The notes below the pieces were generated by a model. It was not told the origin of the DNA, searched no databases, and saw nothing but the letters and a program-made list of their open reading frames with translations. Below are positions 15,362 through 26,987 of a stretch of 57,661 nt of DNA, piece by piece. Every line of letters begins with the position of its first letter. Within the stretch, counting starts at the first letter, position 1. The translations under genes and the position numbers were made by a program. Source of the DNA: an uncultured Myxococcales bacterium (lineage in GTDB: Bacteria > Myxococcota_A > UBA9042); the NCBI GenBank assembly GCA_937910235.1, contig CALENB010000192.1, positions 1-57,661 on the forward strand, given 5' to 3'.

Positions 15362-15670
15362 TAGGGTCGACAAACGAAGCGAAGTGGCCTACCCTGGTTG
15401 CGAGGATCGCTGCTTTTCATTGGCTTCGGCTATGGCCTCCCAGCCACCGCAGCAAAGACCGAGCGCCAGCTTGGCGATGAGCGGCCCCTCATATCCAAAG
15501 AAATCCGCGGGCATCCTCTAAGAGACCCGCGGGAATCAGGCCGACGCCTGATCGTGTCCATGGCCCACGCAGAGAAGAGATCGGATCGGCGCAACCGGAA
15601 GGTTGAACGGTCGACAATGCTACAGGATCGGAGGAGTGCTGCGGTGCGCGAGGCCGAGGCGGTGCACATC

Positions 15671-15744
15671 GCGGCTCCAACACCGCGGCTCCAACCACCG
15701 CGGCTCCAACCACCGCGGCTCCAACCACCGCGGCTCGAACGACC
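15671..15744 (+). repeat. 15-bp direct tandem repeat, five copies
   Basis: Units of GCGGCTCCAACCACC begin at 15671 (one base short), 15685, 15700, 15715 and 15730 (two substitutions). The unit length is a multiple of three, but neither reading frame through it looks like a real protein. Confidence 0.9.
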
Positions 15745-15902
15745 GCGACACCGACCGGTGACTTTCGGCCACGGCCCGAAGTGCTGGGTTGACCCGTCCC
15801 CCGCGCCGCGGCACCCCCGAGCACCTCGGACGTGTGTCACGTCGCCGCCTGTAGGCACCTTGAGAGTCATCGGAGCAGACCTCCGAGGAGAAAGAAGTAC
15901 CC

Positions 15903-16355
15903 ATGTGGAAGAAGTTTGAGCGCAGCGCTGGCACGACCAGCGGCAGAAGCACGACCTCGGCGACCCTGGCCGGCCCACGAGCGCGGCCACAGGTCGTCAA
16001 CCGCCGACGGCCCGCCGTGACCGAGGCGCCAACGGCGACGCGTCGTGTGGGTGGTCGGACAGTGACCACCGTCGACCTGAACCCGCCCCCGGCGGTCGCA
16101 CCTGTGCGTGCCCGACCGAAGGTCTCGCCTGAGGTCGCGGCGGCGAAGTCCCGCTGGAGCGAGCTGACCGGCAAGCTGTCGTCACGCGACGGCAAGCCCT
16201 ACTACCCCGACCGCACGTACGCGCAGGGCGACGTCATGCTGCACAAGCGCTTCGGCATGGGCGTGGTGGAGACTGTCGTGCACGAAGAGGCCGTCATGGT
16301 GCTCTTCCGCGACGGTCAGCAGGTCATCGAGATGGCGCAGGCCGCGACTCGTTAG
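15903..16355 (+). CDS. conserved hypothetical protein with C-terminal Tudor/CarD-like domain
   Basis: The 150-residue basic protein starts at an ATG preceded by GAGGAG twelve bases upstream. Residues 1-70 are Arg/Thr/Pro-rich and probably disordered. Residues 100-148 (YPDRTYAQGDVMLHKRFGMG, then strands ending in VLFRDGQQVIEMAQA) resemble the small beta-barrel in CarD- and Tudor-like proteins, with the pattern G-D-x-x-x-H-x-x-F-G-x-G-x-V. A role in binding nucleic acid or RNA polymerase is plausible but not shown. A hairpin follows and ugd converges on it. Confidence 0.75.
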   Translation: MWKKFERSAGTTSGRSTTSATLAGPRARPQVVNRRRPAVTEAPTATRRVGGRTVTTVDLNPPPAVAPVRARPKVSPEVAAAKSRWSELTGKLSSRDGKPYYPDRTYAQGDVMLHKRFGMGVVETVVHEEAVMVLFRDGQQVIEMAQAATR

Positions 16356-16397: not shown

Positions 16398-17717
16398 TCA
16401 GGTGGGTGGGCGGCCGATACCGGCGTAGGTAAAGCCGGCCGCGGCCATCTTCTGCGGGTCCCAGATGTTGCGCCCGTCAAAGACGAGCCGACAGGGCGTC
16501 GCTGCGGCGAGCTCTTCCGGGCTGATGCCGCGAAACTCCAACCACTCGGTGACGACAGTGACGACGTCGGCGTTTGCGACCGCGTCACGCCACGTCGCGG
16601 CGTAGGCGATGTCGCCGCCGAGCACGGCATAGGCAGTCTCGCGGGCGACGGGGTCGTAGGCGACCACGTCCGCGCCAGCTGCGACCAACATCTGCGCGAC
16701 GACGATCGACGGCGCCTCTCGCATGTCATCGGTCTCAGGCTTGAAGGCGAGACCAAGCATCGCGATCGTCTTGCCGCGCACACCCTCCCCTGACTCAGCG
16801 CCGAAGTGCCGGAGCCCCTTCTCCGCGAGCACGCGCTTCTGGGCCGCGTTTACGACCTCTACGGCCTCCAGCAGCGCCATGTCGCAGCCGACGGACTGGC
16901 CGGTGCGCAGCAGCGCTTTGACGTCTTTGGGGAAGCAGGAGCCGCCGTAGCCGATGCCGGCGTTGAGGAAGTAGCGCCCGATCCGCCGGTCGGTGCCTAT
17001 GCCGCGTTTCACGTCGTCGACGTCGACGTGCATCTTGTCGCACACCCCCGCCATCTCATTCATGAACGAGATGCGCGCCGCCAGCATGCAGTTGGCGGCG
17101 TACTTGGTCATCTCGGCAGAGCGGCGCGCCATGAACAAGAGCTGATCGGGGCGCTCCACAAAGGGATGATACAGCTCGGCCATCCGCGCTTTGGCCCGGT
17201 CGCTGTCGGTGCCGATCACGACCCGGTCCGGGTGAAAGAAGTCCTCGATCGCGGCGCCCTCTTTCAAGAACTCAGGGTTGGAGACGACGTCGAGATCGGC
17301 CTCAGTCACCTGCCGCAGCACGGCCTCGACCTTGTCGCACGTGCCCACAGGGACGGTCGATTTACAGACCACCACGGTGTACCCGGTGAGGTGCGGCGCG
17401 ATCGCGCTGGCCACGCCTAGCACGTAGGTCAGGTCGGCCGAACCATCCTCGCCAGGCGGCGTCCCGACGGCGATGAAGACGCAGTCCGCGTCCGCCACCG
17501 AGTCCGCCGTGTCCGTGCTAAAGCCGAGGCGCTTGCCGGCGACGCTCTCCGCCACAACCGTCGCGAGCCCGGGTTCGTAGATGGGGATGGAACCGGCCTT
17601 CAACGCCGTGATTTTACGCTCGTCGATGTCGACGCAGATGACCCTGTGGCCGCCGTGGGCGAAACACGCCCCTGCGACCAACCCGACGTAGCCTGTCCCG
17701 ATAACTGCGACCTTCAT
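16398..17717 (-). CDS. ugd: UDP-glucose 6-dehydrogenase
   Basis: Oxidises UDP-glucose to UDP-glucuronate using two NAD+. The 439-residue sequence has the N-terminal Rossmann motif GTGYVGL (7-13), FIAVGTP, the substrate segment NPEFLKEGAAIEDF, and the catalytic cysteine at 261 in GYGGSCFPKD. The length is typical. The ATG lies four bases after the stop of the upstream GAPDH-like gene, and its ribosome site (GAGGTG) is formed by the last codons of that gene, so the two are translated as a pair. UDP-glucuronate would feed capsule or exopolysaccharide synthesis. Confidence 0.95.
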   Translation of the reverse strand: MKVAVIGTGYVGLVAGACFAHGGHRVICVDIDERKITALKAGSIPIYEPGLATVVAESVAGKRLGFSTDTADSVADADCVFIAVGTPPGEDGSADLTYVLGVASAIAPHLTGYTVVVCKSTVPVGTCDKVEAVLRQVTEADLDVVSNPEFLKEGAAIEDFFHPDRVVIGTDSDRAKARMAELYHPFVERPDQLLFMARRSAEMTKYAANCMLAARISFMNEMAGVCDKMHVDVDDVKRGIGTDRRIGRYFLNAGIGYGGSCFPKDVKALLRTGQSVGCDMALLEAVEVVNAAQKRVLAEKGLRHFGAESGEGVRGKTIAMLGLAFKPETDDMREAPSIVVAQMLVAAGADVVAYDPVARETAYAVLGGDIAYAATWRDAVANADVVTVVTEWLEFRGISPEELAAATPCRLVFDGRNIWDPQKMAAAGFTYAGIGRPPT

Positions 17718-17721
17718 GCAA

Positions 17722-18795
17722 TCACACCTCGTCGAAGAAATAGGGCTTGAAGACCTGAATCCGCTCGTTATACGAGCTCGGATCCAAGTGGAAACACGTC
17801 GCCGCGATGCTGCTCAGCAGGCTGTTGCCATCCTGCGGGGTGAAGCAGAACCCGATGACCTCGTTGTCGTTGCGGATGGTGAGCGTCGACTCGACGATGA
17901 CGGTCTGGTTGAGAATCCGGCCGTACAGACCATGATCACGGCCAAAGGAGAACACGGACGCTGTCGAGTCTTTGTGCGTCATCGCGACCAGCTCGTCGTC
18001 TTTGAACCGACGCTTGACCTCATCGAGCGTGATCGGCGTCGTGCGGCGCAGCTGAAAGTACAGCGAGTGCATGAACTGGGTGTTGAGCTTCACCGCGCTG
18101 GAGAAGAGATTGAGCTCCTCACCTTTGGTCTGGTACAGGTGATAGGCGTCGCGCGCGTGGTGGGTGCCAAAGCGCGGATCACCATGATTGCCAACCGTCG
18201 GCGCCGGGATGAAGTCCTTGTCCTGGCTCGTATCCGTGGCGCGGCGCATGCACAGAAATCGCCCCTCGTCGAGCACGTTGGCGTCGCCGTCGAAGCCGAG
18301 CAGGCGGCACAGGATCGAGAGGTTGTGGGTGTTGCAGCTGACGACCTGGATGTACTTGCCCGTCTTGTCTTCGACCGCCGCCGCGAGCGTGTCGTCGTTG
18401 ATGCCACGGGCGTACATGTGGCCAAAGCCGAACTCTGAGCCCTGCGCGATGAAGAGGCGGTCGGGCGTCTCGTAGCGCTTGTAGACGCTCTCCTTCATCT
18501 TGAGACCGATGGGGGTGCAGTCGATCACCACGGCCGCCGTGTCGAGCGCCTCCTCAAACGTACCGACCGGCTCCATGTCGAGCGCCAGGAACGCGTCCCG
18601 ACGATCAGCGTTGACGAACAGCTCGGCGCCAGCCTGCTGCAACGCCCACACCTTCGAACGATCGGTCTTGAGGGGGGTGTGCTTGTGAAAGAGCACCCGG
18701 TCGATGCCGAGCGCCTCCTTGCTGCGCACGAGCATCGCGATGAGCGGCTCGCCGATAGTCCCTGTGCCGACGACCAAGACGTTCTTCGAGATCAT
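17722..18795 (-). CDS. type II (archaeal-type) glyceraldehyde-3-phosphate dehydrogenase homologue
   Basis: A 357-residue Rossmann dehydrogenase: dinucleotide motif VVGTGTIG (8-15), VVIDCTPIGLK, and the active-site segment YIQVVSCNTHNLS with Cys at 154, followed by MRRATD and THHARDA. These match the type II GAPDH of archaea rather than the usual bacterial type I enzyme. The frame stays open upstream, but the ATG at 18795 has GGAG seven bases before it and opens directly into the dinucleotide fold. It is upstream of and coupled to ugd. Whether it is glycolytic or a specialised sugar or aldehyde dehydrogenase cannot be decided here. Confidence 0.78.
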   Translation of the reverse strand: MISKNVLVVGTGTIGEPLIAMLVRSKEALGIDRVLFHKHTPLKTDRSKVWALQQAGAELFVNADRRDAFLALDMEPVGTFEEALDTAAVVIDCTPIGLKMKESVYKRYETPDRLFIAQGSEFGFGHMYARGINDDTLAAAVEDKTGKYIQVVSCNTHNLSILCRLLGFDGDANVLDEGRFLCMRRATDTSQDKDFIPAPTVGNHGDPRFGTHHARDAYHLYQTKGEELNLFSSAVKLNTQFMHSLYFQLRRTTPITLDEVKRRFKDDELVAMTHKDSTASVFSFGRDHGLYGRILNQTVIVESTLTIRNDNEVIGFCFTPQDGNSLLSSIAATCFHLDPSSYNERIQVFKPYFFDEV

Positions 18796-18913
18796 TGCTT
18801 CGCTCCACTTTGCGCGCTCCGGAGGCGACGCAAGACTGGCAAGACTGGGTTGTGCGACCGCGACATCGACAGCGCAAAGACGACCGGAGCGTCGGCTGTC
18901 ATGGGGCGGACGG

Positions 18914-18941
18914 AGTATAGGGTTCGAGCTTGCGGAGTCAA
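18914..18941 (-). promoter_or_regulatory. sigma70-like promoter of the GAPDH-like/ugd operon
   Basis: On the minus strand TTGACT and TATACT are 16 bp apart, a strong match to consensus, about 118 bases before the ATG at 18795. Confidence 0.7.
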
Positions 18942-19206: not shown

Positions 19207-22182
19207 ATGGCTGAGACCGACTCCAACAATGAGATCGCTGAGTTGAACAACAACGCGGCGACGGGCACAACCGACTTGAGCGCCGCTGCAGAGGCAGGCG
19301 CCGCGACGGGTGATACCGGCGGCGGCAGCGGCGGCAACGGCGGCGACGGCGGTGGCGGCGACGACGGCGGCTCCATCGGCGCGCACCCATACACGATCAG
19401 CATCGAGCAGGAGATGCGCTCGAGCTACGTCGACTACGCCATGAGCGTGATCGTCGGCCGCGCCCTGCCGGACGTGCGCGATGGTCTGAAACCCGTGCAT
19501 CGTCGGGTGCTGTTCACGCAGCATCAGATGAAGAACAACTTCAACGCCGCCTACAAGAAATCAGCGCGTATCGTCGGCGATTGCATCGGCAAGTATCACC
19601 CGCACGGCGACACGGCGGTCTACGACACCTTGGTGCGGATGGCCCAGGAGTTCTCGCTGCGGGCCCCGCTCGTCGATGGCCAGGGAAACTTCGGTTCCAT
19701 CGACGGCGATCCGGCCGCGGCCATGCGGTACACCGAAGTGCGCATGACCAAGCTCGCGCACGAGCTGCTGGCCGATCTCGACAAAGAGACCGTCGACTTT
19801 CAGGACAACTACGACGGCCACGACCGCGAGCCAACCGTGCTGCCAACCCGGGTTCCCAACCTGTTGGTCAACGGCTCGAGCGGCATCGCCGTCGGCATGG
19901 CGACGAACATCCCACCACACAACATGCGCGAGATCATCGACGCGACGGTCGCCTACATCGTCGACCCGGAGATCGAGGTCGGCGAGCTGATGCAGCACGT
20001 GCACGGCCCGGATTTCCCGACCGGCGGCATTATCTATGGTCGGCAGGGCATCTACGACGCCTACACGACGGGGCGCGGCAAGCTGAAGGTGCGCGCGGTC
20101 ACGCACATCGAGCAGATGGACAAGACGGGGCGTGAGCGCATCGTCGTTGACGAGCTGCCCTACCAGGTCAACAAGGCCCGGCTCATCGAGTACATCGCGC
20201 ATCTGGTGCGCGACAAGAAGATCGAGGGCATCTCGGATCTGCGCGACGAGAGCGATCGTCACGGCATCCGCATGGTCATCGAGTGCAAGCGCGACGCCAT
20301 CGCCGAGCTGGTGCTCAATCACCTCTACCGCCTGACCAACCTGCAGACCACGTTCGGGGTGATCGCGCTGTCGATCGTCGCTGGCCAGCCGCAGGTGCTG
20401 ACGCTCAAGGAGATGATCCGCCACTTCGTCGACCATCGCCGCGAGGTGGTGACCCGCCGTTGTCTGTTTGAGCTGCGGCAGGCCGAAGCGCGCGCGCACA
20501 TCTTGGAAGGCTTGCTGATCGCCCTCGACCACCTCGACGAGGTGATCCGGCTGATCCGTGGCAGCGCCGATGGGCCGACCGCCAAAATCAAGTTGATGGA
20601 GCGCTTTGAGCTGAGCGGTCTGCAGGCCCAAGCCATCTTGGACATGCGTCTGCAGCGTTTGACCGGCTTGGAGCGCGACAAGATCAAGGCCGAGCACGAC
20701 GAGCTGATGGAGCTGATCACCTGGCTGCGTCGGGTGCTGGCCGAAGACACGCTGCTCATGGAGATCATCACCGACGAGCTCATCGCGGTGCGGGACGAGT
20801 ACGCCAACGAGCGCCGCACCAAGATCGTGGACGACCTCGGCATGCTCGCCATGGAAGACCTGATCGCGGACGACGAGCAGATCGTGACGCTGACCAACAC
20901 CGGGTACATCAAGCGCACGCCGCTGACCGAGTACCAAGCGCAGCGGCGCGGTGGTCGCGGCAAGATGGGCATGACGACGAAGGAAGACGACGTCGTCAGC
21001 GATCTCTTTGTGGCGACGGCGCATCAGCCCGTGCTGTTCTTCACGAGCAAGGGGCGCACCTTCTCACTCAAGACGTACGAGCTGCCGAAGGGGACGCGCA
21101 CGACGCGTGGCAAGCCGGTGATCAACCTGCTGCCCGTCGAGAAAGGCGAGACGATCAAGGCGCTGCTGCCGGTCAAGACCTTCGACGACCCCGACGCGTG
21201 TGTGCTGCTGGCGACGCGCTCCGGCAAGGTCAAGAAGACCGCGCTTGAGGCGTACAGTAAGATCAGGTCCACCGGCATCATCGGCATTGTGCTCGAGGAA
21301 GACGACGACGTGATCGACGCGCGGCTGGTCTACCCGAACAGCACGGTGGTGCTGGCGACCCGCGATGGCATGGCGATCCACTTCCAGAGCAGCTACGACC
21401 GCGAGTCCGGCGTGGGCTTGCGGCCGATGGGGCGGGTGACGCGCGGCGTGAAGGGCATCACCCTGCGTGAAGGGGACGAGGTCGTGAGCTTGGCGGTGCT
21501 GCACACCGACGAGCGCGTCGCGGCCAACGCCGAGCTGGGCGAAGACACGGCGGAAGACGCCGCGCTGGTCGACGAAGACGCCGTGCTGGTCGACGAAGAC
21601 GGCGTGGTGATCGAGGCCGACGGGGCGCTGGAAGCCGACGATAGCGGCAGTGAAGAGGACGAGACCGACGACGACGGCGACGCTGGCGAGATCGCGGACT
21701 TCAGCTACGTGATGCTGACGATCTCGGAGAACGGCTACGGCAAGCTCACGCCACCGCAGGCCTATCGCATCCAGCGGCGTGGCGGCATGGGCCTCATCGA
21801 CTTGAAGACACGCAAGAGCGGCGAGCCCACCAAGACCGGCAAGAGCGTCGGTATGCGTGTGGTGCGCCCCGGTAGCCAGGTGCTCGTGCTGACGGCGAGC
21901 GGCAAGCTGATTCGGACCCCGATCGATCAGATCCGTGTGGTCGGGCGCAACACAGAGGGTGTGCGGGTCATCGTGCTCGACAAGAACGAGACGGTGGTGA
22001 GCTTCGACCACATCCATGTGGACGAAGAAGAAGAGGTCACGGTGGACGCGGTCGACGCCACCGATGCCGACGACGCCGCATCCAGCGAACCACAAGACAG
22101 CGCCAGCGCGGACTCGACGGGTGCGCAAGACAGCGACGCCGACGCCGCTGCTGACACCGAATCCGACGCGAGTGAGGTCTAA
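19207..22182 (+). CDS. gyrA: DNA gyrase subunit A
   Basis: The breakage-reunion subunit of DNA gyrase. The catalytic tyrosine is at about 175 (AMRYTEV). The quinolone-resistance region reads [13 protein letters not shown], with Thr at 136 (E. coli Ser83 position) and Asp at 140. A GyrA-box QRRGGRG at about 579-585 marks it as gyrase rather than topoisomerase IV; a second related QRRGGMG lies in the pinwheel. At 991 residues it is over 100 longer than usual. The extra length is a Gly/Asn-rich N-terminal stretch of about 55, an acidic insert near 779-828 inside the C-terminal beta-pinwheel, and an acidic tail of about 50. GGAG precedes the ATG. Confidence 0.96.
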
Positions 22183-23572: not shown

Positions 23573-25060
23573 ATGGCCAACAACCGCTATCTGCTCGCGA
23601 TCGACCAAGGCACCACCGGCACGACGGCGCTGCTCATCGATACCCAGCTGCACATCGTGGCCAAGGTCAATCGAGAGTTTCCGCAGATTTTTCCTGAGCC
23701 GGGCTGGGTCGAGCACGATCCCGAGGCAATCTGGGCTTCGGTGACGGATTCGGTCGCGGCGGTGTTGGCTGAGTCCGGGATCGGCGGCGACGCCATCGCG
23801 GCGATCGGCATCACCAATCAGCGCGAGACGACCGTCATTTGGGACCGGGAGACGCACGCGCCGATCTACAACGCCATCGTGTGGCAGTGCCGGCGCACGG
23901 CCGATCGCTGCGCCGCGATGCGGGACGCTGGTCACGAAGCTGTGGTGCACGCGACGACGGGGCTGGTCGTCGACGCCTACTTTTCCGGCACAAAGGCGGC
24001 GTGGATCCTCGATCGGGTCGACGACGCGCGGGCGCGGGCTGAGGCGGGCGAGCTGGCCTTTGGCACCATCGACTCCTTTGTCACCTGGCGCCTGACCGGT
24101 GGCGCGGCCCATGTCACCGATCCCTCCAACGCTTCCCGCACGATGCTCTACGACATCCACAAGCGCGGCTGGAGCGAGGCCATGTGCGACCTCATCGGCG
24201 TACCCATGGCGGTGCTGCCCGAGGTCAAGCCGAGCGCCCACATCTACGGCACCACAGCGGGTGTGCCTGGCCTGCCCGATGGCATCCCGGTGGCCGGAAT
24301 CGCGGGCGATCAGCAGTCGGCGCTCTTTGGTCAGCTCTGCACCCGCGTCGGCATGGCGAAGTGCACCTATGGCACCGGCGCGTTCCTGTTGATGAACACC
24401 GGCGCAGAGGCCGTCAACTCCAACCATCGGCTGCTCACCACCGTCGCGTGGCACGTCGGCGACGAGTTCAGCTACGCGCTCGAGGGCAGCGTCTTCATCG
24501 CGGGCGCGGCGGTGCAGTGGCTGCGGGACGGACTGGACGTCATCGAGAGCGCGCCACAGATCGAAGCGCTGGCCGCGTCGGTGCCCGACACTGGCGGCGT
24601 GACGTTTGTGCCCGCGCTCGCCGGCCTCGGCGCGCCGCACTGGCGTGAGCACGCCCGCGGCATCCTGACCGGGCTGACCCGCGGCACCACACGCGCGCAC
24701 GTCGCCCGGGCGACGCTCGAGGGCATCGCGATGAGCTGCGCCGACCTGCTCGAGGCGATGGAGAAAGACCTGGGCCACCAGCTCACGGAGCTGCGGGTCG
24801 ACGGTGGCGCCTCCGCCAATAACTTACTGATGCAGATGCAAGCGGACCTGTTGGGCTGCGATGTGGTGCGTCCCGAGGTGATCGAGACGACCGCGCTGGG
24901 TGCGGCGATCCTCGCCGGCATTGGCGCTGGGATCTTTGAGAGCGTCGAGGCGGCGCGGGAGACGTGGCGCGAGCAACGCCGCTTCACGCCAGGCGCCGAC
25001 GCGGCCGCGAGCACGGCCGCGCTGCGGCGCCGTTGGGCAGACGCCGTCGCCAAAGCTTAG
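23573..25060 (+). CDS. glpK: glycerol kinase
   Basis: Phosphorylates glycerol to sn-glycerol 3-phosphate. The 495 residues match the FGGY family throughout: LLAIDQGTTGTTALL at the N-terminus, the GWVEHDPEAIW segment, ITNQRETTVIWD, the glycerol-binding region, and the C-terminal ATP-site motif RVDGGASANNLLMQMQADLL. The length is standard. GGAG lies shortly before the ATG, 27 bp after the methyltransferase stop. No glpF or glpD is in the window. The product feeds phospholipid synthesis or glycolysis. Confidence 0.96.
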   Translation: MANNRYLLAIDQGTTGTTALLIDTQLHIVAKVNREFPQIFPEPGWVEHDPEAIWASVTDSVAAVLAESGIGGDAIAAIGITNQRETTVIWDRETHAPIYNAIVWQCRRTADRCAAMRDAGHEAVVHATTGLVVDAYFSGTKAAWILDRVDDARARAEAGELAFGTIDSFVTWRLTGGAAHVTDPSNASRTMLYDIHKRGWSEAMCDLIGVPMAVLPEVKPSAHIYGTTAGVPGLPDGIPVAGIAGDQQSALFGQLCTRVGMAKCTYGTGAFLLMNTGAEAVNSNHRLLTTVAWHVGDEFSYALEGSVFIAGAAVQWLRDGLDVIESAPQIEALAASVPDTGGVTFVPALAGLGAPHWREHARGILTGLTRGTTRAHVARATLEGIAMSCADLLEAMEKDLGHQLTELRVDGGASANNLLMQMQADLLGCDVVRPEVIETTALGAAILAGIGAGIFESVEAARETWREQRRFTPGADAAASTAALRRRWADAVAKA

Positions 25061-25144: not shown

Positions 25145-25930
25145 TTAGACGAGCAACCCACGTGCCCGCGCCCAGCGCTCGAACGCGTGCGTGAGCGCCT
25201 CAAACGAGGGCACCTCGAAGTAGTCCGTCTGGATCTCGGTGGTGACAAACGGCCGCGCCGCCATCGCGTCGAGATCGAAGGGGTGCACCGTCACGCCCGG
25301 CGAGAGCGCGTGAGTCAGCTCACCGATGGAGCTGATGAGGCCAGCGCCAAACGCGCGCAGCGCTCCCTGCTCACGAATCAGACCAAACTCAACTGTGAAC
25401 CAGTAGATCCGCGCGAGCGCAGCGACGTCTGCGTCGTTCGCATCGCGCCCGGCCTCGCCGAAACGCTGAAAAAACTGGCAGAAAGCGGGCAGCGTCAGCA
25501 AAGGCACGTGGCCGAATTGGTCATGGAAGAGGTCCGGCGCTGGGGTGTAGTCCAGATCGGCGCGGCGCCGAATGAAGTCCGTCGCAGGGAACCGGCGCGT
25601 CGCCACGAGCTCGAAGAAGGGCCGCTCAGCGACCAGCCCCGCCACACGCTCCAGGCGCCAGCCCGTCAACCGGTCGAGGTTCTTGGAGAGGGTTCGCAGA
25701 CTCGGGATGCGGCCGCTCTCAAAGCCGGCGAGATCAAGGCCATCAAGCACGGGTTGGCAGGCCGAGCGAGCGAGGCGGGGCCGCTGCCGATCGTACAATA
25801 ACTGCCACGTCGCCTCTTCTTCTGCGGTATAGGTGGGGCGTGGCGGTAGTTCGTGCACGGCAAGTCCTGCGAGAGTGGGCGGCCCCTTGTAGCGATCTAC
25901 GCGCTCCGCGCCAAGTCCACGCCGCGCCAT
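25145..25930 (-). CDS. phhA: phenylalanine 4-monooxygenase (aromatic amino acid hydroxylase)
   Basis: A non-haem iron, tetrahydrobiopterin-dependent enzyme hydroxylating phenylalanine to tyrosine. The 2-His-1-Glu iron site is present: HDQFGH with His at about 136 and 141, and Glu at about 181 in YWFTVEFGLI. At 261 residues it is the short bacterial form without an ACT regulatory domain. The frame is open 90 codons further upstream, but that part reads as basic low-complexity sequence; the ATG at 25930 fits the family N-terminus. Its ribosome site is weak. No pterin dehydratase (phhB) is adjacent. Tryptophan hydroxylase activity cannot be excluded. Confidence 0.9.
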   Translation of the reverse strand: MARRGLGAERVDRYKGPPTLAGLAVHELPPRPTYTAEEEATWQLLYDRQRPRLARSACQPVLDGLDLAGFESGRIPSLRTLSKNLDRLTGWRLERVAGLVAERPFFELVATRRFPATDFIRRRADLDYTPAPDLFHDQFGHVPLLTLPAFCQFFQRFGEAGRDANDADVAALARIYWFTVEFGLIREQGALRAFGAGLISSIGELTHALSPGVTVHPFDLDAMAARPFVTTEIQTDYFEVPSFEALTHAFERWARARGLLV

Positions 25931-25999
25931 GTTCAAGGTGAATCGACGAGACAGCGCGCGGTGGTGGCGACCCTCATCCCGGTCAGCGGCTGACTTTTC

Positions 26000-26027
26000 T
26001 TGGCAGGCGCGCCGAGCGAGCCATACT
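26000..26027 (+). promoter_or_regulatory. candidate promoter for the SGNH gene pair
   Basis: TTGGCA and CATACT are 16 bp apart. The implied start lies just before GGAGGA at 26035, giving a very short leader. Confidence 0.35.
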
Positions 26028-26048
26028 CGTCCCTGGAGGATTTCGCTG

Positions 26049-26987
26049 ATGCGCCGAAGACTGCTGATACGTTTACTCGCACGTGTGCTGACCCGAGGGT
26101 TGGTGCTGACCGCGTTGCTGCTCGCGACGCCGGTGCACGCCGCCGCGCCGTTCAAAGACGCGACTCGACCGATCAAGGCCGTGGTGATTGGTGGCTCCAT
26201 CTCGATGTATTATCGGGGCAACTACGGCGACTTCCTGCAACACGGCTGCAAGAACCTTGAGGTGGTCAATCGGGCCAAAGTCGGCGCGGGTGGCCCTGCC
26301 CTCGTCAAGCAGCTGCGCAAGGCGGTGCTCGGCGACCGCAAGCTCATGGCGCAGGTGAAGGGCAAGCATCCGTGGCTGCTCTTTCAAGGTGGGCTCAACT
26401 CGGTGTTCTCGCCGGAGATGACCTCGGAGAATCTCGCCAAGATGTTCAAGCTCGCCAAGTCGAGTGACTTCCAAACCTTCGCGTTGACGCTGACGCCGTG
26501 GGGCGACGCGTCTGACAAGCGCTTTGTGGGGTTTGAAGGGGTGTTCTACGTGCGCGCGACCAAGCACATCAACCAGTTCCTGCTCGGCAAGTTGACCCCA
26601 GATCAAGCCCTGGGTGCGCGCGCGAAGGGGCGACCGCACGAGTGGATGAAGGGCGAGGTGCCCGACCGCGCGGTGGACGTCTTTCACTCCGGTCTACGCG
26701 ACGGTGGCGCGACGTTGCTGCCCGCGGCGCCGCTCGAGCGCCGTTTCTCGCACAGTCGGTATCGAAAACGTGTCAAACAACAAGCGCAGCTCGTCGCAGA
26801 GGCGCGAGCCGTGCCGCGTAACTTCCTGAAGAAGTCCTACCGCGACTTCGATCACATCCACCCCAACAGCTCCGGACACCGGCTGCTCGCCGTCGCGGTG
26901 TGCGCCAAGGCGCCGGCGTCGTGGGGTTGTGACTGCGCCCGCATCAAGCGGTCCGTATTCAAGGGCCACGTGATGGACCCGAAGTAG
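26049..26987 (+). CDS. exported SGNH/GDSL-hydrolase-like protein
   Basis: The 312-residue protein has a Sec signal peptide (hydrophobic core about 17-27, cleavage near VHA-A at 31). The ATG at 26049 has GGAGGA eight bases upstream. The SGNH residues are recognisable: Ser at about 50 in IGGSIS, Gly/Asn in GGLNS (Asn about 117), and Asp 268 with His 271 in DHIHPN. These enzymes deacylate or transfer acyl groups on polysaccharides and lipids. Its place next to a second SGNH protein and across from an MBOAT acyltransferase suggests a periplasmic role in polymer O-acylation. The substrate is unknown. Confidence 0.78.
   Translation: MRRRLLIRLLARVLTRGLVLTALLLATPVHAAAPFKDATRPIKAVVIGGSISMYYRGNYGDFLQHGCKNLEVVNRAKVGAGGPALVKQLRKAVLGDRKLMAQVKGKHPWLLFQGGLNSVFSPEMTSENLAKMFKLAKSSDFQTFALTLTPWGDASDKRFVGFEGVFYVRATKHINQFLLGKLTPDQALGARAKGRPHEWMKGEVPDRAVDVFHSGLRDGGATLLPAAPLERRFSHSRYRKRVKQQAQLVAEARAVPRNFLKKSYRDFDHIHPNSSGHRLLAVAVCAKAPASWGCDCARIKRSVFKGHVMDPK

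Follow-up and report, generated by a model that had tools for sequence, protein, structure and literature searches.

Few steps of central metabolism are as conserved as the one carried out by glyceraldehyde-3-phosphate dehydrogenase (GAPDH), and the bacterial enzyme is regarded as being of type I. What, then, is the role of a gene resembling the archaeal type II enzyme in an uncultured Myxococcales bacterium, directly upstream of a UDP-glucose dehydrogenase gene? The window analysed here is the whole stretch of 57,661 nt (contig CALENB010000192.1). An earlier note on it, which rightly called type II GAPDH unusual in bacteria, had proposed an archaeal enzyme with a strong promoter of its own and a link to sugar-nucleotide oxidation. 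The explanation that we favour, with a probability of roughly 0.6, is a phosphorylating GAPDH belonging to a bacterial clade sister to the archaeal enzymes, probably NADP(H)-using and mainly gluconeogenic. Its direct basis is homology, fold, conserved residues, distribution, neighbourhoods and co-occurrence with or without type I GAPDH and PGK, and from these we infer residue roles, cofactor, substrate and direction.

The features of the locus are as follows.

16398..17717, minus strand: UDP-glucose/GDP-mannose dehydrogenase family protein (ugd), 439 aa, 4 nt downstream of the GAPDH-like stop
17722..18795, minus strand: GAPDH type II-like dehydrogenase, 357 aa, with predicted catalytic C154 and H243, R184/R185 and K38
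17725..17730, minus strand: GAGGTG, Shine-Dalgarno-like, 7 nt before the ugd ATG, formed by the last two sense codons of the GAPDH-like gene (read from the sequence)
18803..18806, minus strand: GGAG, Shine-Dalgarno-like, 7 nt 5' of the GAPDH-like ATG
18914..18941, minus strand: sigma-70-like promoter match TTGACT-16-TATACT, 10/12 (consensus match only)
19207..22182, plus strand: gyrA, divergent neighbour conserved in the genus (context)

The GAPDH-like open reading frame was confirmed as a real gene, since homologues at 52-85% identity were found across many genomes. Its coordinates had been given correctly; the strand, absent from the earlier note, is minus, with the ATG at 18795 and the TGA stop at 17724-17722. 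The sigma-70-like match lies about 120 nt upstream of the gene, in a region with two promoter-like sites against a shuffle mean of 0.2. The promoter described before is thus seen as one 10/12 consensus match; its strength does not follow, because a pattern match is no evidence of activity.

The window protein has no Pfam family above cut-off, and the type I domains Gp_dh_N and Gp_dh_C (PF00044/PF02800) were not found in it at E <= 1. Its whole-protein scores against the type II GAPDH models NF003251 and TIGR01546 were 93.1 (cut-off 185) and 58.4 (cut-off 232.9) bits, so that both curated cut-offs were missed. The family was further analysed in an alignment of 53 rows (A2), which holds the window protein and 52 of 80 retained loci, hand-chosen to thin near-copies. 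All 53 members matched these two type II GAPDH models with their best E-values (best E 4.8e-32), asd_B was matched in four with a best E of 2e-5, and a homoserine dehydrogenase model was absent from the seven models listed for them. The best solved relatives of the window protein are four archaeal GAPDH structures (PDB 1cf2, 1b7g, 2czc and 2yyy). The predicted model (mean pLDDT 90.8) superposed on these four with Z 34.3-36.1 over 321-326 residues at an rmsd of 2.2-2.4, compared with Z up to 25.5 for type I GAPDHs, which share the superfamily fold; among the 50 fold matches listed, there was no aspartate-semialdehyde or homoserine dehydrogenase, which does not prove that such a match is absent. 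In profile-profile comparison the probability was 99.8 (E 8.8e-30) with archaeal type II GAPDH and 38 (E 3e-4) with the type I GAPDH of the same genome. Models, solved structures and fold therefore agree on archaeal-type homology, and the homoserine or aspartate-semialdehyde dehydrogenase-like placement that had been named as counting against it did not appear.

Phylogenetic analysis, which the earlier note had suggested, separated the 53 family rows from 27 archaeal rows on opposite sides of one branch with 100/100 support in the careful tree, and the quick tree gave the same split. The tree is unrooted and its archaeal rows come from a sample of one phylum group (27 of 30 loci; L122, L142 and L149 were left out as near-duplicates), so it shows separateness and not the direction of transfer. 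A further alignment (A3) used nine of the 30 archaeal loci. Judged by its sequence, the gene is not a canonical type II GAPDH; it belongs to a bacterial clade of its own, sister to the archaeal enzyme. The description as the archaeal enzyme accordingly holds for homology but not for identity. This clade was not described in the open-access literature searched.

Residue conservation was compared between the two groups. C154, H243, R184 and R185 are invariant in 53/53 family and 27/27 archaeal rows, as are the positions of 1cf2 Cys140, Asn141, Thr142, Arg167, Arg168, His193, Asp197 and His219. We take Cys140 and His219 (1cf2 numbering) to be catalytic and the Arg167/Arg168 pair to bind phosphate. 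K38 closes the second strand and is found in 53/53 family and 24/27 archaeal rows, and a lysine here presumably favours NADP; the type I protein of the same genome has VAVND at the corresponding strand end, which we assume to suggest NAD. The archaeal SCNTT[GA]..R motif is missing in the family, which has SCNTHN in place of SCNTTG. Beside the nucleophile, T143 is replaced by H157 and G144 by N158, and R147 mostly by Val, Cys or Ile, with no Arg among the four commonest residues of that column, whereas the archaeal rows keep T143 and R147 in 27/27 and have Gly (22/27) or Ala (5/27) at G144. Further invariants are specific to the family (H157, N158, S120, H204, D322 and N324 in 53/53; Q240 in 52/53), together with the motifs QGSEFGFG, with QGSE for archaeal QGGE, and C-terminal TPQDGNS. 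These residues suggest an intact chemistry with a partly altered substrate pocket. The protein thus resembles archaeal type II GAPDH in fold, catalytic Cys/His, Arg pair, NADP-compatible Lys and an H...D motif, and differs from it in an identity of only about 22%, in SCNTHN, QGSE and TPQDGNS, in the loss of the arginine at position 147 and in its separate clade.

Of 267 matches in a pattern scan of 84,980 species genomes, 232 encode relatives, and the best 80 were kept. The family accordingly comprises at least 232 loci, scattered patchily across at least ten phyla. By record and tree labels, the best 80 of the 232 include Myxococcota, Acidobacteriota (Geothrix), Krumholzibacteriota, Gemmatimonadota, Bdellovibrionota and Thermodesulfobacteriota, as well as Binatota, Tectimicrobiota, Bipolaricaulota, Marinimicrobia (Fidelibacterota) and Actinomycetota. 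In the sample of the window's phylum it was present in 7/89 genomes: 4/4 of the genus, 0/18 others of the family, 3/30 others of the class and 0/37 others of the phylum. Two bins labelled Bathyarchaeota (L033 and L056) contain a gene of the bacterial clade and lack a canonical archaeal type II GAPDH; transfer or mis-binning is possible, and the two bins have no weight in our conclusions.

The genomes of holders were examined for other GAPDHs, PGK and PFK. A separate type I gapA, for which the earlier note had proposed a check, is present once in the window's genome (417 against an NCBIfam cut-off of 367), ending 3 nt before pgk in one operon, so the type II-like protein is a second GAPDH-like enzyme there; the genome also has two PFK genes. 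Forty holder genomes were hand-picked, five from the phylum sample and 35 from the 80 loci. PF00044 was present in 31 of them and missing in nine, one of which (G100) was restored to type I by a PF02800 domain at a contig edge. This left eight without type I (G031, G102, G104, G106, G107, G120, G121 and G122), a count that is not a random-sample rate given the hand-picking. Weak PF02800 matches in these were the family gene itself (G031 and G122) or below cut-off (G120 and G121). A search of 14 genomes, the eight included, yielded no canonical type II GAPDH. PGK is encoded in six of the eight, including G104, G106 and G107, where the family gene lies on chromosome-level records of 3.6-4.3 Mb, which makes assembly incompleteness a weaker excuse. 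These data suggest that the family protein seems to be the only GAPDH in a few bacteria. PGK was not found in the assemblies of G031 and G102, which counts against the GAPDH explanation. PFK is missing in five of the eight, in favour of a gluconeogenic GAPDH, and its presence in G106, G107 and G122 speaks against one.

A general rule by which the family replaces type I was not supported, as most holders keep type I and, within the window's phylum, PF00044 was missing in 1/7 holders versus 10/82 non-holders. When 148 genomes centred on G104 were surveyed, G104 itself was the sole holder of the family and seven genomes lacked PF00044; with a single holder, this survey provides no test of anti-correlation with type I. 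As a separate observation, the PGK of the Entotheonella genomes G106 and G107 (L103 and L104) is very divergent, at 236 bits versus 450-500 elsewhere. Its best solved relative is 2cun, which we take to be of archaeal source, with a second chain scoring almost identically; the combination of a divergent PGK and a type II-like GAPDH in these genomes hints at an unusual lower glycolysis.

The gene order at the locus could be read quite differently: in the earlier note's view the protein would act in sugar-nucleotide oxidation, as an enzyme or a flux switch with a functional tie to ugd. Model TIGR03026 identifies the ugd product as a nucleotide-sugar dehydrogenase (437 bits, cut-off 190), the two genes follow each other on the same strand in 4/4 genomes of the genus, and the last codons of the GAPDH-like gene do form a likely ribosome site for ugd, as had been described. 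This overlap is, however, not conserved in the three sister genomes, the tight junction being confined to the window, and the spacing of 4, 185, 37 and 246 nt in the four genomes indicates that the coupling is not conserved. Among the best 80 of the 232 relatives, ugd lies within 6 kb of the family gene in one locus (L010), which belongs to the window's own genus. A conserved functional link with ugd was therefore rejected. The C154/H243/Arg-Arg site also points to a small phosphorylated aldehyde, and we regard a role in sugar-nucleotide oxidation as very improbable. Within the genus, the neighbouring ugd product would draw on the same carbon further downstream and would not be a partner enzyme.

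Neighbourhoods elsewhere in the best 80 loci are lineage-specific, with no universal partner gene. In seven loci the family gene is preceded on the same strand by malate synthase and isocitrate lyase genes, as assigned by Pfam on one member per cluster, with isocitrate lyase 48-128 nt from it in five of these. In one locus (L044), fructose-bisphosphatase (FBPase) lies 15 nt downstream. These neighbours point to gluconeogenesis and not to sugar-nucleotide oxidation. Glutamate dehydrogenase precedes the gene in eight Geothrix-type loci, and HPr kinase is divergent from it in six acidobacterial loci. Other neighbours (TldD, DUF192, RNase G, SecD/SecF and fabF-type genes) have no visible metabolic link, and the majority of neighbourhoods are non-metabolic, which counts against the GAPDH and gluconeogenesis interpretation. 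In some acidobacterial loci, L075, L067 and L085 among them, a regulatory cluster resembling HPr kinase/RapZ/HPr/PtsI flanks the family gene on one side and fabF/ACP genes flank it on the other, the family gene lying on the opposite strand; of these neighbours, Pfam identified HPr kinase and the ketoacyl synthase, and the rest were assigned by eye.

Two further alternatives were weighed. The invariant family-specific residues around the nucleophile and elsewhere would also suit a dehydrogenase that shares the mechanism but takes a different phosphorylated or small aldehyde as substrate, such as erythrose 4-phosphate, with its specificity changed by the SCNTHN loop, QGSEFGFG and TPQDGNS. The replacement of T143, G144 and R147 beside the nucleophile counts against a GAPDH, most holders (31/40 by PF00044) have type I gapA, and a bacterial type II GAPDH, CDQ83_07070 of Pseudoclostridium thermosuccinogenes, which is set beside our clade by description only, showed no GAPDH activity with NAD or NADP (PMC6543838). 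Against another substrate, the phosphate-binding Arg pair and the catalytic pair are kept, and in the six genomes with PGK and neither type I nor canonical type II GAPDH, something must make or use 1,3-bisphosphoglycerate; we consider this alternative unlikely, though the most serious of those weighed here. The same inactive enzyme, for which the authors suggest non-metabolic roles (PMC6543838), and the redundancy with type I in many genomes would fit a non-catalytic or moonlighting protein. Catalytic residues that are invariant in every one of the 53 members make such a protein improbable.

For a gluconeogenic GAPDH, the favoured explanation, C154 would form a thioester by attack on the aldehyde or, in the reverse reaction, on the 1,3-bisphosphoglycerate acyl phosphate, with H243 as the presumed acid/base, R184/R185 holding the phosphate and NADP(H) bound with the help of K38. 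In the window's organism the enzyme would mainly run from 1,3-BPG to GAP, using NADPH and supplying the synthesis of hexoses and sugar nucleotides, beside an NAD-type glycolytic gapA-pgk operon, in a division of labour like that between gapI and gapII in haloarchaea and between gapA and gapB in Bacillus. In lineages lacking type I, it would serve as the sole GAPDH.

Bacillus subtilis GapB is a type I enzyme, and its structure (8wwz) matches the model of the window protein with Z 25.2. The likeness to GapB lies in the proposed role, that of a second, gluconeogenic, NADP-using GAPDH, since GapB is described as the gluconeogenic NADPH-dependent enzyme (PMC6079084). A comparable pair is found in the haloarchaea Haloferax volcanii and Haloarcula hispanica, where gapII is gluconeogenic and gapI is glycolytic with pgk (PMC10817205); there, too, a type I gene lies beside pgk and a type II-like gene elsewhere in one genome. 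Direction and regulation were demonstrated in the haloarchaea and are predicted here, for another clade and a bacterial host.

A 2019 paper stated that there was no functional evidence for class II GAPDH in bacteria (PMC6543838). The present family is a coherent bacterial clade with an intact predicted active site, gluconeogenic neighbours in some lineages and an apparent sole-GAPDH position in some genomes. If active, it would fill an apparent pathway hole in the genomes without type I, account at the cofactor level for the two GAPDHs of others and provide an outgroup for the history of the archaeal enzyme. We tentatively propose, at slightly less than even confidence, that it may represent a third phosphorylating GAPDH lineage ('bacterial type II-b') spanning at least ten phyla and missed by naming models, acting as a gluconeogenic NADPH-GAPDH beside type I and as the sole GAPDH in some Binatota, Entotheonella-like and Marinimicrobia lineages, which would make it the first functional type II-like GAPDH of bacteria.

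Several other elements were noted in the window. Within gyrA, a 21-bp tandem repeat in three copies (21553-21614) encodes an acidic insert in the C-terminal domain, and the GyrA protein also has a long acidic tail. A 15-bp tandem repeat of 5.3 copies with 95% matches (15670-15747) lies just upstream of a small plus-strand ORF (15903-16355). The ORF at 25145-26200 resembles by eye an aromatic amino acid hydroxylase of the phenylalanine 4-monooxygenase type and adjoins a glycerol-kinase-type gene of the FGGY family (23573-25060).
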